A stretch of 64,000 nt of DNA, from positions 3,122,175 to 3,186,174 of the forward strand of contig NC_092031.1 in NCBI RefSeq assembly GCF_042242105.1, given 5' to 3'. The stretch comes from Pempheris klunzingeri (lineage: Eukaryota > Chordata > Actinopteri > Acropomatiformes > Pempheridae). Below the pieces are notes generated by a model. That model had not been told where the DNA came from, did not search any database, and saw only the letters and a list, made by a program, of their open reading frames with translations. The position numbers and the translations under genes were made by a program. Below, piece by piece: positions 7,506-61,967 of this stretch (position 1 is the first letter of the stretch; each line of letters starts with the position of its first letter).

Positions 7506-18614
<11,109 letters not shown>

Positions 18615-53903: not shown

Positions 53904-53953
<50 letters not shown>

Positions 53954-56900
53954 GTGCAAAACAGATGCAGCGTGTTTGTCGTGCAGTCTGACCTCCTCCT
54001 GCATGCCGCACTCCAGCAGCATGGTGACACAGGCCTCGATGGGAAAGGCAATATCTCTCCCGCTGAGCGCTAAGTGTTCCTCTAATGGTTTCCCATAGCA
54101 CGGTTTCTCCACCCAGGTCTCTGTCAAACACACACAAACACACACACACACACAGTTTCAGGATGTTGTTACACTTGAATACAAATGCTTTTTCTCTACG
54201 GCTGCAGAAAGTCACCAAACCAAAGAGGAAATTTGCACTGAGCTGCTATTTCATCAGGTATCAGATAAAACTAATGCAGTCTTATAAACTAATGAATATA
54301 AAACCTGCCTTCATCAAGTTTACAGTTTTCTGTTTTTGCTAGTGTGTCTAATATATCACTCACTGTAATGGGATACAGTTCAACAGTACTGCAAACTACA
54401 GCCTCCACAAAGTGACCAAACAGTTGGATCAACACCACTCTAAAAACAGTTTCAACCAAACTTGACTTTTTAAGCCTTCATGACGTATTAAACTGTCAGT
54501 AAAACATTAGATACAGCTCAGAAATGTTAGTAGTACCACTAAAAACAGTGTGTAAAGTGACTGAGAACATAAAATGAAATAAAAATGGCCCAAAAAGCTC
54601 CTCATTAACGATCATATTGGCAGAACATGTCCTATTTGGAGAAGTCTTACTTATTACTCCTCCTCCAACTTCTAAAAGCACTTAAAGCACTATACAAGTG
54701 CAGTTACCACTCACCATGGCTAAGATATGGCCATTACCCCATTCCCCTATTTATACTGCTGGTAAATATAGGGTTGTATCATCTGCATAACATGACAGCT
54801 CTTAAACAGAATAGACAGAAAAGAAAACAACAGAATAGTGAATGAATGAAAGAAGGGAGGGACAGATAAGAAAAAAGCAAAGTTTAACTAACTAATATCA
54901 TAAAAACTCACCCTAACCAGGTAGTCAGACTAGTTCGTATTAGTTCACGTGATATGATTTGTCAGTTTAGTCCACATTGGTAAAGATCTGTGCATTTTTA
55001 TGAGAGTGGCGGCTTAACTTTGACTGCTGCTCATTTGCTCACAGATATGTGACATCATGGATGAAAACCTTAGACTTTAATCTATGTTTTCAGGTGCTTT
55101 ACCCTGCAGAAAAGCATACTGGCTGAGCAGGATAGTTGCTGAGATGATGTATGTAATTTCTCAGTTCAAGAGGTGCACTTTTCACCTGTGTTCCCACTGA
55201 TGCTGAGGACTTAAAGGCTCAGTATGTACCAGATGATTTTAGTGTCCACAGTGTTGAAGCTGTAATTAAAACAGCTAAACTCAAACAGCGGGACGCTGAA
55301 CTGATCATAAACACATGCAGGCCTAAGCACTGGCTGAGAGGAGGACGAGTGACAAAACAGACTGAAACATGAGTGTGTTGGTCTCAAACTCACCCTGATG
55401 GGCTTTGATCTGGGGCAAAACACTCTGCAGCAGCTCTAATGACTTCCTGTGGTACTCTGCCTGGACCTCTATCAGCTGGGCAGAGAGACAGAGAGAGACC
55501 AGAGAGTCTGTGATGGACAAGCAGAATATTTCCATCTCTTCACAAATGCCTGGAGAGTCTGGAGAGACGGTGTGCTTACCGTCTGGAAGTAGCTTGCATA
55601 GTCAATTTCTTTGGCCACAAAACTGTACATGTCTGCTGATAACTGATCCTGGTGAGAGACAAACATACTTATACATGAGCAACGAGGAGGCAGGAGACTC
55701 AGACAAACATAAAACATGTCTAACAGCATTTTGACTTAATTAACTACACTAATGATGGCTGTGGATTGTGTACGCTGGCTAACTGGGACACTTAATGTAG
55801 CTGAGTCTGTATTCATGTTATTAGTTATTTACACTGTATGTTTTTTTGTTGTTTAAAAGGTCAAAACATGTGAATACACAGTAAAATCTATGAAACTTAT
55901 ATTTATCCTGTCTATTGAGAAATTATAGAACTAGAAATCAGGCAGCGATATATCTAATCTGCATTTTGATGTGAAAACACTAAATTAATCCTTTTTTTTG
56001 CAGGACATCTACATTAAATCTTTGTGCAAGGATTAACTGTCCAAAGATTTGAAGTTACAGCTACAGTTTGTCACTGTAAGCAACTCCTTTCACATTACAC
56101 AGAGGCATATGAAGCATTGTTAATCTGGATGTCCAATCAGTGAATCAGTGTTTGTTGGTAAATGTAGTCACTTGAAGAACTGAATACCTCAGTTTGTGCT
56201 TTATTGATCTCTGTGGCAAAATCTGTTGTACTTCCTGGTCTCCAGCGGCGTCATCAGAGTCACTGGTGACCAGGAAGAACTACAGACTCGTTTTGGTTGA
56301 GTCTTTAGGGCCGTCTGTGGCCGATGCGGACCCGAGGAGAGTCGAGCAGGGAGGATTTTGGGGTTGGAAGTGAGAAATTCTCATAAAATGCATCATGGTG
56401 AATGTAGGCACTGCTGGCATGGCTCTGTGAGCAGGATAACTCAGCTTTCTCGGTCAATATAACACGCACCGAGGGATTTACTGCTAGTTTTTGGCTACTT
56501 TTACCATCAACACTGGTTGGAAATCAGCATAAAACGTAGCAAAGTTTTCCTTTAATATAGAAATATTGATTAGTGCAGCTTTAACTCTAATTCTAAGACA
56601 ATTAACTTATATCATTATGGAAATAAATCGTGAGTGAAGGTGAGCACTGACTCGACAGATCTCCATGCGGTTGGCTGCCTCCTCCATCTCTTCCCTGAGG
56701 TGGTCGGCCTTGGCTCCTGTTGGCTGCAGGTTGCTGGACAGTCCTGAGGACTTGGTGGACTGATAATACCTGATAATAACAACATGCTTTCTGTCAGCAT
56801 TACTATGGATTTGAGAATTGCGTTAGAATAAACAGACACTGATGAACTCGGCATGTTAAACTAAACAAAGACAGTTTTCATTTGCCTTCAGCAGCTTAAG

Positions 56901-60598: not shown

Positions 60599-60653
<55 letters not shown>

Positions 60654-60771
60654 CACCCTAGTAGAGACTCGTCCCCGAGCACAGCCGCCCCCTCCACCAT
60701 ACATTGTGCTAAAGTTGTGAGAGGAAGCTTCTTCTGCACAAAAACAAACAAACACACACATACACACACAC

Positions 60772-60824
<53 letters not shown>

Positions 60825-60939
60825 AAGGATGAATCAGCCGTCACACTCTGCTGAACGTGTCGTGCTCCACACTGAAAACAAAAATCTGTAATTAACAAAT
60901 GAAATTAATCACACACAATCTGTAACACAAGCACGTTAC

Positions 60940-60997
<58 letters not shown>

Positions 60998-61967
60998 TGC
61001 ACACACACACAAAGACCTGGAGGAAGAATTCATCCTCTCAGACTGTTAGAAATCATCCATTTATTTACTGTTAATTGTGATCTAGGAGATATTTTGTAAC
61101 AAACCAACTGTTTTATTATCACATTTTATGTAATTAATCAAAACATTTGCCTCTCACTCCTCCTCAGCCAGCCTTATCGGCTCCAAACACTTCAGCAATG
61201 CTACTATCTAAGTGTTTTTGGGGTTGATTCCTCCCCCAGAGTCTGGGCTTCCTCTCACCGAGGGTGATCTGACAGACTTCTTGTCCACGTCCACGCCCTG
61301 CTGGCCCTGCAGACAGGCAGTCAGCTTCTTGTGTGTGCTGTGGGAAACCTGCTTGACCAGCTCCAGACGTTTCTCCACCTGTCAGATAAAAAAAAAAAAA
61401 GAAGACACAGGACTTAGTGAAGAGTGGGTAACAGGTGCACACATGCAACTGCTTACTCCACCTGTGTCTCACGCTTAAATACTATCAGTCCATCGGCAGG
61501 TAGAGGCATGCACACGCAGGCACTCAGAGCCTCGAGCTAGAATAGAGTCTGATTAAAGACGCCCAGGCTGTGCAGCCGCCTGTTTGTCTCTAAAAACACT
61601 GGCATCAAATCGAGCTTCTCCTCTGCCACCACGGCTGCTGTTTACCTGTCTTATTTTAACGCCTCTCATTTCATCATTAAACCAACACCGTGGAACTGAT
61701 GTCGCTGCCACTGAGGGCAGCATTATTCAGATCAATTACAGAGCTGCGCCCCGAGCCAATCGGTTCAGCCTTTTGTATCACCGAAGAGCTTCAATTTCAG
61801 CGCTCATTAATGTTGCCTGAAGACATTTGATAAAGTCATTTTATGCACAATGAATACTTCCCACCATTAGTGATTTTCTTTTTTCCTATATTACACACAC
61901 ACACAAACACACACGAGTCATTCATACCTGTAGCAGGTCTTCACTTAATACTTCTGTTTTTTCAGCC
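33691..61967 (-). CDS. arhgap44: Rho GTPase-activating protein 44 (RICH2), exons 2 to last; partial at 5' end
   Basis: Twenty-one coding exons join in phase: 61928-61967, 61259-61378, 60657-60733, 59732-59843, 58806-58882, 56652-56769, 55580-55648, 55394-55475, 53993-54120, 52553-52664, 49113-49194, 48909-48989, 47140-47253, 45902-45993, 45598-45778, 42008-42025, 40088-40279, 38747-39274, 37745-37860, 36543-36926 and 33691-33848. They give about 959 residues. The first codons (about 18 in relatives) lie beyond the window. RICH2 is a BAR-RhoGAP that inactivates Rac and Cdc42 at curved membranes, notably in neurons and dendritic spines. Order: BAR domain, RhoGAP domain with GLFR arginine finger, Pro/Ser-rich SH3-binding tail, C-terminal PDZ ligand ESTVL (mammals ESTAL, which binds Shank). 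The protein is longer than the mammalian one (about 818) mainly through the exon at 38747-39274. ARHGAP17 is excluded by the AEKTEVLSEDLLQ start and the tail. Confidence 0.95.
34110..34225 (-). mobile_element. Tc1-like transposase fragment, second locus
   Basis: Minus-strand FQHDDAPVTKS matches the FQHDNAPVH block around the middle catalytic acid of Tc1 transposases. The fragment shares a near-identical stretch with the remnant at 17740-17766 (GGATTTGCTCCCATCC in reverse). It is short and truncated, and lies in the last ARHGAP44 intron. Confidence 0.6.
35755..35862 (+). repeat. 'tttgttggggactattttcagc' repeat, copy 1
   Basis: AAACAGCTGATCACTGTAGT, then TTGTTGGGGACTATTTTCAG, are shared with copies at about 46855 and 62690, all in ARHGAP44 introns and in the same orientation. 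Confidence 0.65.
36543..40279 (-). CDS. arhgap44: ARHGAP44 proline/serine-rich tail exons
   Basis: Four exons (40088-40279, 38747-39274, 37745-37860, 36543-36926) encode the low-complexity tail. The first has MGVRVMDTSWVSRRGSS. The third has LKNKELSP and EHSPHTLRR. The fourth begins AKKLAPIPPKGPYCQTGAMS and carries PSPVSLSPTPPSTPSPYGFS and the SH3-ligand-like TPKPPRQRPSLPPPQPP. These match the RICH2 tail. The 528-nt second exon is the most divergent. Long ORFs in other frames here are composition artefacts. Confidence 0.88.
38747..39274 (-). CDS. arhgap44: ARHGAP44 528-nt tail exon with PPxY motif and Ser run
   Basis: After the acceptor ATCATTGCAG the frame reads SSDDASSNWSDSCYAYPSPE, then ERLPPPYPSS, a run of seven serines from a TCC repeat (about 39160-39186), then long Pro-rich and Ser-rich sequence ending GVKPT. 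The first and last codons complete correctly with neighbouring exons. PPPY is a potential WW-domain ligand. I do not recall an equivalent of this length in mammalian RICH2. Confidence 0.85.
39520..39549. repeat. (GAA)n tract
   Basis: About ten GAA units, next to the acceptor side of the exon ending at 39274, read as (TTC)n in the transcript. Confidence 0.9.
40325..40409. repeat. (GT)n microsatellite, 85 bp, interrupted
   Basis: A long GT tract with a few TT interruptions begins 46 bp from the acceptor of exon 40088-40279. In the ARHGAP44 transcript it reads (AC)n. Confidence 0.95.
41530..41612. repeat. Partial copy of the 'ttatgctaagctaagctaa' repeat
   Basis: CTTCCAGTCTTTATGCTAAG, followed by CTAGGCTAACTAGCCGCTGG, matches the right half of the repeat at 19725-19960. 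Confidence 0.55.
41870..41908. repeat. (CA)n microsatellite
   Basis: About 19 CA units lie 100 bp downstream (in the transcript) of the 18-nt microexon, where the RNA reads (UG)n. Confidence 0.95.
42008..42025 (-). CDS. arhgap44: ARHGAP44 18-nt microexon
   Basis: CATTAGGAAGATACAAAG is flanked by TATGCAG and GTACAG. It completes the glycine codon of KKDG, adds IRKIQ, and supplies two bases of the serine before MGVRVMD. Mammalian RICH2 has LRKIQS at the same place, so the exon is real. Its length is a multiple of three, so skipping keeps frame. Confidence 0.88.
42187..42213. repeat. 27-nt G homopolymer
   Basis: An uninterrupted run of 27 G sits 160 bp upstream (in the transcript) of the microexon, where the RNA reads poly-C. 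Its length is probably unreliable in any assembly. Confidence 0.95.
43505..43534. repeat. (CA)n microsatellite
   Basis: About 15 CA units lie in an ARHGAP44 intron. Confidence 0.95.
44290..44580 (+). repeat. Dispersed repeat 'ccatcac..tccagactgaaatatctcaac'
   Basis: CAGACTGAAATATCTCAACT, GATCCCTGACCTTTTCATTT, AGCGCCATCATCAGG and GGTTAGCATGCTGATGTTAG are in the standard order of a well-known teleost repeat. The copy at 9890-10165 is related. Confidence 0.6.
45598..54120 (-). CDS. arhgap44: ARHGAP44 RhoGAP domain exons
   Basis: Exons 53993-54120, 52553-52664, 49113-49194, 48909-48989, 47140-47253, 45902-45993 and the start of 45598-45778 encode the GAP fold at about residues 255-450. The arginine finger is in GLFRVAPSASKLKKLK. 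Other conserved blocks are YLRELPEPLM, YLIKFLSKLTEYQDVNKMTP, IVLGPNLLW and TEMMTTVSLQIVGIIEPIIQ. These residues stimulate GTP hydrolysis on Rac and Cdc42. The 45598-45778 exon then moves into the linker, GNYGSPVH and RRPLSVATDNMMLEFYKKDG. All catalytic positions look intact. Confidence 0.93.
46283..46470 (+). repeat. Dispersed 'aagtacaagtaaaagt' repeat, copy 7
   Basis: ATTTAGATCCTTCACTTCAA, AAAAGTACTAATACCACAAT, GTACAAGTGCTTCAG and AAAGTATTAAAAGTAAAAGT give the full phrase order of this family. Confidence 0.65.
46497..47110 (+). repeat. Compound repeat: 'gattaat' family plus 'ttggggactattttcagc' family
   Basis: From 46497 to about 46790 the sequence matches the family at 29040-29335 in opposite orientation (GATTATTTTCATTGTGGATT, AATCTGCTGATTATTTTCTC). 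From about 46855 to 47100 it matches the copy near 62690 (TTGTTGGGGACTATTTTCAG, then CACCCGGTGCAACAGTGAGG and ATCTCTGTGGCGCAGAGGAA). The pair may form one long element. Its right end comes within 40 bp of exon 47140-47253. Confidence 0.6.
48266..48290 (+). repeat. (GGGA)n tract, G-quadruplex-like
   Basis: Five or six GGGA units on the plus strand, the template strand of ARHGAP44, within an intron. Four or more GGG runs with one-base loops meet the usual G-quadruplex pattern. Confidence 0.85.
48505..48750. mobile_element. 246-bp foldback (MITE-like) element
   Basis: The ends are inverted repeats of about 30 bp: CCACCAGACTCCATTG with AAAAACAGTAATTT on the left, and AAATTACTGTTTTT with AATGGAGTCTGGTGG on the right. 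Inside are an inverted pair (TTTGTGTTATTGTG and CACAATAACACAAA) and a direct pair (CCTTGATTAGTTAGTTTGT and TCTTGATCAGTTAGTTTGTG). No ORF of note. It lies in an ARHGAP44 intron. Confidence 0.75.
53906..53952. repeat. (GT)n microsatellite
   Basis: About 23 GT units, 40 bp from the donor of exon 53993-54120. The RNA reads (AC)n downstream of the exon. Confidence 0.95.
54128..54154. repeat. (CA)n tract forming part of a splice acceptor
   Basis: About 13 CA units with one AAA interruption end 7 bp from exon 53993-54120. In the RNA this is (UG)n directly before UUUGACAG, so it replaces the usual pyrimidine tract. Confidence 0.9.
55394..61967 (-). CDS. arhgap44: ARHGAP44 N-BAR domain exons
   Basis: Eight exons, from 61928-61967 to 55394-55475, encode the BAR dimer that senses or makes membrane curvature, about residues 19-250. 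Blocks in order: AEKTEVLSEDLLQ, VEKRLELVKQVSHSTHKKLT, KKLPLTTLAQCMVEGAAVLG, MLKLCGETQDKLAQELIFFE, VEIPNIQKQRKHLAKLVLDM, ATGAKAD-like region with LREEMEEAANRMEICR, DQLSADMYSFVAKEIDYASY and EVQAEYHRKSLELLQSVLPQ. The segment before KKLPL reads DVDKKSVRSPS and is a few residues longer than in mammals. Introns carry many CA/GT tracts. Confidence 0.93.
56985..57249. repeat. T22 and A19 tracts 224 bp apart
   Basis: A run of 22 T at 56985-57006 and a run of 19 A at 57231-57249 lie in an ARHGAP44 intron. The tracts are complementary. I recognise no retroposon body between them. Confidence 0.8.
57800..58105 (+). repeat. Dispersed repeat 'caccaaaatctaatcagttcatc'
   Basis: CCTGAGTTATGGCTTTGGAT, GAGTTGTGGCCAAAAATGGG and CACCAAAATCTAATCAGTTC, followed by ATCTTTGAATTCGAGTGGAT and TCCAGATTTGAAGAAATTCA, are in the order of a very common teleost repeat. 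In an ARHGAP44 intron. Confidence 0.6.
60604..60650. repeat. (GT)n microsatellite abutting a splice donor
   Basis: About 23 GT units end only 6 bp from exon 60657-60733. In the RNA the donor GUGAGU runs straight into (AC)n. Confidence 0.95.
60752..60820. repeat. (CA)n microsatellite upstream of a splice acceptor
   Basis: About 30 CA units with few interruptions. In the RNA this is (UG)n followed by a short U-rich stretch and UGCAG, the acceptor of exon 60657-60733. Confidence 0.95.
60940..61011. repeat. (CA)n microsatellite
   Basis: A third CA tract in the same intron as the tract at 60752, with one GACATG interruption. Confidence 0.95.

Follow-up and report, generated by a model that had tools for sequence, protein, structure and literature searches.

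The arhgap44-like gene and the repeats around exon 4

The window (the whole 64,000-nt stretch of DNA that was analyzed) carries an arhgap44-like gene that runs down its minus strand and includes exon 4, the exon under study. Sixteen exons (e2 to e17) were placed from the human ARHGAP44 protein together with splice sites. The numbering follows the human gene and counts an exon 1 that was not located: four short peptides matched neither the window nor the 10 kb next to it. The limits of exons 11-17 are provisional, and exons past e17 are unplaced. The joined exons encode a BAR domain (Pfam PF03114, E = 2.3e-53) followed by a RhoGAP domain (E = 1.1e-22), and the gene is probably the fish neuronal arhgap44. 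Open frames at window positions 12897-13778 (minus strand) presumably resemble NDEL1. ArhGAP44 is described in the available text of PMC4381785 as limiting neuronal filopodia via its N-BAR and Rac-GAP parts.

Exon 4 and its surroundings comprise the following features, all on the minus strand:

60604..60650, perfect (AC)23.5 tract of 47 nt (TG on the plus strand), in intron 4 from +7
60651..60659, exon 4 donor AGG/gugagu (CUAGG/gugagu), from the sequence
60657..60733, exon 4 (BAR domain, 77 nt), from tblastn, splice sites and Pfam
60734..60752, U-rich acceptor tract and AG, uuuguuuguuuuugugcag, from the sequence
60744..60824, near (UG)n array, imperfect (AC on the plus strand), before the acceptor of exon 4
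60825..60850, predicted distant branch-point region, from motif matches only
60941..61011, far (UG)n array in intron 3, perfect over up to 52 nt

The human ARHGAP44 protein matched positions 60733-60656 in tblastn, and this match, the splice sites and PF03114 confirmed the original prediction of a 77-nt BAR exon of ARHGAP44, in which the minus strand had been left unstated. Exon 4 is bounded by the acceptor uuuguuuguuuuugugcag/AAGAAG and the donor CUACUAGG/gugaguacacac. The frame break expected upon skipping was borne out as well: 77 mod 3 = 2, and in a translation of the joined exons the absence of exon 4 shifts the frame and leads to a stop in exon 8. When paired with U1, the exon 4 donor reaches -9.6 kcal/mol, against -11.6 for the consensus. 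It shares second place among the 14 listed donors, of which two had been read with a shift of one base.

The (AC)n tract begins directly after donor position +6, and the near UG array (89-92% matches to its unit, longest perfect run 42 nt) stops 10 nt short of the acceptor. The (UG)n before the acceptor and the (AC)n after the donor that had been reported are thus real (60824-60744 and 60650-60604), while a second UG array (61011-60941) and a second enclosed exon, exon 10, had been missed.

Within positions -160 to -1 of exon 4 there are just two yUnAy motifs, CUGAU with its A at -101 and UUCAU with its A at -97, and the sequence from the AG at -114 down to the acceptor is AG-free, an AG exclusion zone of at least 100 nt. 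The sequence predicts a distant branch point (at about -100), which would place the near UG array between branch point and acceptor. According to the accessible part of PMC1431707, such a long AG-free zone accompanies more frequent skipping in human exons (68 of 235 cassette exons vs. 47 expected). Exon 4 is like these distant-branch-point exons in its AG-free stretch of about 110 nt and its branch motifs at -97/-101, and unlike them in that a microsatellite occupies its zone; the lack of AG could be a simple by-product of this repeat filling.

At exon 3, 15 nt (VRSPS; 61273-61259, minus strand) before a gugaga donor are extra relative to the human protein. A shorter in-frame donor (gucaga) is possible there, and the second arhgap44 copy described below has VKSPS at the same site.

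Pairing across exons 4 and 10 and the repeat background

UG upstream together with AC downstream occurs at two of the 16 placed exons, namely exons 4 and 10. The features at exon 10, again on the minus strand, are:

53906..53956, (AC)n after the exon 10 donor, perfect run from +41
53993..54120, exon 10 (128 nt), enclosed by UG and AC, with the weak donor GAG/gucaga
54128..54154, (UG)n before the exon 10 acceptor, from TRF, longest perfect run 54153-54138

The duplexes across these exons (-99.8 kcal/mol at exon 4, -58.8 kcal/mol at exon 10) are the two strongest of the 14 exons tested. In a 281-nt fold that contains the near array only, the AC tract of exon 4 pairs with this array, and in a 501-nt fold it pairs with the far array (0.98) and hardly with the near one (0.02), being nearly fully paired in the folds. 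As exon 4 sits in a loop in both, the proposal that complementary tracts pair and loop it out agrees with the folding. The accompanying claim that the stem masks the donor does not: mean donor P(unpaired) was 0.36 for the 501 nt (0.49 for the 281 nt), and it fell to 0.24 +- 0.15 when the AC tract was replaced by random letters (20 versions, 501 nt), so that donor masking is not predicted. The U-rich acceptor tract was unpaired at 0.30 in the shorter fold and at 0.50 in the longer one, where the replacement control gave 0.49. Given the value of 0.30 in the short fold, the near array may mask the exon 4 acceptor in part.

The fold of the exon 10 region is more stable than those of all 100 shuffled versions (z = -4.77), and translation of the joined exons without exon 10 ends at a stop in exon 11. 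Its donor is weak (-5.5 kcal/mol with U1), as is its counterpart in the second copy (-6.6 kcal/mol), and UG and AC arms are both present at exon 10 in both gene copies. With this weak donor and the enclosure in both copies, exon 10 is a stronger candidate than exon 4 for regulated skipping.

Enclosure of two exons among the 16 placed is more than chance would give in both of our tests, which were chosen post hoc. The gene span tested holds nine tracts of at least 8 units. When these were placed uniformly and in random orientation, on provisional exon limits of which some are a few nt off, two enclosed exons arose in 0, 2, and 29 of 20,000 placements for distances of 50, 150, and 300 nt, respectively. 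When both UG..AC pairs were kept rigid, each enclosed an exon in 0.21% (0.0021) of placements.

The repeat background is dense. A stretch of 284 kb contains 40 perfect tracts of at least 8 units, with 7 neighboring tract pairs 51-400 nt apart (5 GT..AC, 2 AC..AC), and for the three GT..AC pairs outside exons 4 and 10 inspection of six frames by eye found no recognizable coding exon. In 334 kb (a small sample, with every pair counted and some pairs having a tract in common), pairs 121-500 nt apart were GT..AC in 8 cases, AC..GT in 0, and same-strand in 2 for tracts of at least 8 units, and 10, 0, and 6, respectively, for tracts of at least 5 units; pairs 61-120 nt apart (at least 8 units) comprised one AC..GT and no GT..AC. 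As GT..AC dominates these background pairs, the orientation may be partly a property of the genome.

Donors followed by AC recur in the genome (645.9 Mb scanned, 439 contigs). The sequence GGTGAGT(AC)8 occurs at no fewer than 5 places (backward control: 1). At all five an open frame reaches the donor, and four of the five presumably resemble known protein families. A UG tract of at least 5 units lies up to 400 nt upstream at one of the five, namely exon 4, and a GT tract lies farther downstream at one. The looser GTRAGTNNN(AC)9 was found at 87 places among the matches listed; its backward control gave 161, so the 87 sites represent no enrichment. We do not think this control fair, as the two flanks of a microsatellite differ. 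In the first 20 of these 87 listed places, no GT tract of at least 8 units was found up to 300 nt upstream, a region with GT runs of 4-7 units in three and an AC tract in one. Enclosure was thus seen at 1 of the 25 AC-behind-donor places read.

The second arhgap44 copy

Matches in the genome fall into two arhgap44-like copies and two weaker sets, one of each on contigs C17 and C20; the weaker sets are taken for arhgap17. The second arhgap44 copy lies at C17:18774920-18778481 (exon matches with 52-85% amino acid identity), and there too exon 4 measures 77 nt and exon 10 measures 128 nt. We read 2,921 nt of it (C17:18774880-18777800), from exon 3 to the start of exon 11. This stretch has two AC tracts of at least 4 units, one of 10 units at +25 after exon 4 and one of 15 units at +10 after exon 10. 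Random placement brought both within 41 nt (a limit derived from the window itself) of the donors of exons 4 and 10 in 158 of 200,000 trials; with any donors allowed, the count rose to 5,166. The exon 4 donor is as strong here as in the window (-9.8 kcal/mol with U1).

The UG side behaves differently at the two exons. In the C17 copy a UG tract before exon 4 is absent, and the best upstream pairing of the AC tract there amounts to -8.8 kcal/mol; the two arms are thus not both kept at exon 4 of the homologous gene. From this absence it follows that the AC tract is the common part and the exon 4 hairpin copy-specific. The stretch has one GT tract (15 units), in intron 9 just past the exon 9 donor and 379 nt upstream of exon 10, and it is with this UG tract that the AC tract of exon 10 pairs best (-58.5 kcal/mol). 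Since intron 9 makes up about one-fifth of the intronic positions of the second copy by our own arithmetic, a tract would fall there by chance about as often, which makes its location weak evidence.

The 3' flanks of the AC tracts, compared between the copies, did not align above shuffles (503 of 2000 as good at exon 4, 165 of 2000 at exon 10). With flanks that do not align and offsets that differ (+7 and +25), the AC tracts of exon 4 may be inherited or may have arisen more than once. In one arhgap17-like copy the corresponding exon lacks a tract.

Readings of the exon 4 repeats

The reading that we favor, though tentatively and at somewhat less than even chances, is a donor-proximal CA-repeat element on a normally included exon 4 of teleost arhgap44, and we rank it ahead of neutrality and of a loop-out switch. 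It is favored because the shared and recurrent part of the arrangement is AC behind the donor, while the UG side of exon 4 is private. Intronic CA-repeat elements bound by hnRNP L are known, e.g., in eNOS, and exon 4 is like them in having a CA repeat in the intron close downstream of its donor in both copies; unlike them, its repeat begins at +7, and binding here is putative. We infer that exon 4 is a coding exon that would normally be included, and that the AC tract after its donor would be the part likeliest to act, being of a kind that hnRNP L may bind and lying at a place that seems to permit AC. The UG arrays would have been added to the upstream intron in this copy only; their lack of AG and, for the near array, a position between the distant branch point and the U-rich tract would explain why they are tolerated. 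The UG-AC duplex could form around exon 4, yet it would be secondary and copy-specific and would at most tune inclusion.

The excerpt of PMC13174678 links hnRNP L with AC repeats and TDP-43 with GT repeats, and associates an AC repeat with skipping of SH3YL1 exon 9, while in the consulted part of PMC3796306 skipping of CHRNA1 exon P3A is promoted by hnRNP L from an exonic site. An AC tract near a donor might thus act in either direction and may, by analogy with these exons, repress instead. Further points count against the favored reading: the double enclosure in one gene is difficult to put down to chance and speaks for the pair having a role, both copies have exon 10 between UG and AC, and long AG-free zones go with more skipping in the exons treated in the available text of PMC1431707.

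The leading alternative, which we consider rather unlikely, is that the repeats are neutral microsatellites in a CA-rich genome, that AC after the donor and UG before the acceptor merely spare the splice sites, and that nothing is regulated. The density of perfect tracts in the 284 kb agrees with this, as do the prevalence of GT..AC pairs in the background (three of them lacking a recognizable coding exon) and the strength of the exon 4 donor. It is less easily reconciled with the AC tracts at the same two exons of the second copy (the 158 of 200,000 placements) and with the fact that both pairs of the gene enclose exons (0.0021). If the AC tracts are inert, the locus is a good example of how repeat-rich genomes yield convincing exon hairpins.

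Less probable again, and unlikely on the whole, is a switch in which the UG-AC duplex lowers exon 4 inclusion, the frame shift removes the protein, and repeat length sets its level. Complementarity across exons 4 and 10 is strong, as in exons with flanking inverted repeats, the AC tract is nearly fully paired, the acceptor U tract is 0.30 unpaired in the 281-nt fold, and skipping of either exon leads to a stop (in exon 8 and exon 11, respectively). RNA hairpins, for their part, compete with RNA-binding proteins and with fast exon recognition, which weighs against this switch, as do a second copy that lacks UG before its exon 4 and, in the window, an exon 4 donor that is both strong and unmasked in the folds. 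That complementary stretches on either flank can loop out an exon is well established according to section 12 of PMC7404189, and exon 4 is like the exons treated there in having complementary stretches on both sides; it differs from them in that its pair is not common to the second copy and its skipped form is hypothetical. In a CFTR exon 9 minigene described in section 26 of PMC11416411, an antisense (CA)8 oligo directed at the UG tract takes the place of TDP-43 in part, from which it follows that pairing of AC to a UG tract can change splicing. The loop-out switch stays alive because the AC tract could act in cis as the (CA)8 oligo of that section does. Taken together, looping and skipping at exon 4 is possible rather than likely.

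A broader version, which we regard as doubtful, is an old two-site device in which the AC tracts of exons 4 and 10 and the UG tracts upstream loop out frame-breaking exons, with repeat length as the dial. If it were true, loss of exon 4 would remove the protein, the stop lying within the BAR-coding part, loss of exon 10 would leave the membrane-binding BAR part without the GAP, and the arrangement would be an exon-enclosing counterpart of the AC/GU intron-bridging class of fish. The UG-exon-AC arrangement was absent from the titles and abstract beginnings of the literature on the splicing of this gene, and likewise from those on dinucleotide repeats with introns, circular RNA, and skipping in fish.

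Repression of the TDP-43 type through the (UG)nUn acceptor, on the model of CFTR exon 9 and independent of the AC tract, is very unlikely. The likeness to CFTR intron 8 (TG)mTn and exon 9 that had been drawn holds for the acceptor, where UG repeats and a U stretch precede AG, and fails at the donor, which is weak in CFTR exon 9 and strong here (-9.6 kcal/mol). Exon 4 further differs in its frame-breaking length, its cis AC tract, and its imperfect UG array. A usable U-rich tract follows that array, and the UG tract is missing at exon 4 of the second copy, both of which speak against such repression.

In a 2016 Genome Res study, Lin et al. reportedly found fish introns to be bridged by AC and GU at opposite ends, which aids splicing and reportedly makes it independent of U2AF2, and AC/GU intron-bridging introns of fish are reviewed in the accessible text of PMC7404189. 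We consider it highly improbable that such end-to-end pairing of AC with GU within an intron occurs here and helps splicing. Exon 4 fits this class, as it is reviewed there, by AC after the donor and GU before the acceptor, by their complementarity, and by its fish-like genome; it is unlike the class in that the strong partners flank an exon and not the two ends of one intron. No GU tract ends intron 4 and no AC tract starts intron 3, so complementary end tracts are absent from both introns, and the end-to-end energies (-31.9 kcal/mol for intron 3, -27.9 kcal/mol for intron 4) compare with the -99.8 kcal/mol across exon 4. Since no tract faces the AC tract within its own intron, bridging was dropped as the main explanation.

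Traces of such a partner were nevertheless found. The AC tract of intron 4 (60656-59844, minus strand) has a weak GU-rich partner at -20.2 kcal/mol, which beats 40 of 40 shuffled introns (best -17.8) but compares with -92.9 kcal/mol in intron 3. This partner does not amount to a tract, and its distance from the acceptor is 238 nt. The T-rich/GU-rich stretch that holds this partner aligns between the copies (2 of 300 shuffles as good). In intron 4 of the second copy the best own-intron partner lies in this aligned stretch, but at -7.4 kcal/mol, when 40 shuffles reach -9.2. At intron 10, the partner in the second copy (-17.1 kcal/mol) adjoins the acceptor and beats all 40 shuffles (best -11.6), whereas the own-intron partner in the window (-17.0 kcal/mol) stays within the shuffles.

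Back-splicing, in which the duplex of complementary flanks across exon 4 would promote a single-exon circular RNA, is scarcely credible, a 77-nt circle being short against known single-exon circles, which are longer as a rule.

To return to the favored CA-repeat element, if the AC tracts act, both gene copies have preserved or regained an ordinary microsatellite at the same pair of donors, and its length could tune a neuronal trait, in line with the role of ArhGAP44 in the available text of PMC4381785. The AC repeat beside the exon 4 donor is the part worth testing. Elsewhere in the gene, AC tracts also lie upstream of the exon 17 acceptor (40279), at 40408-40339 on the minus strand, in an orientation opposite to that at exons 4 and 10.
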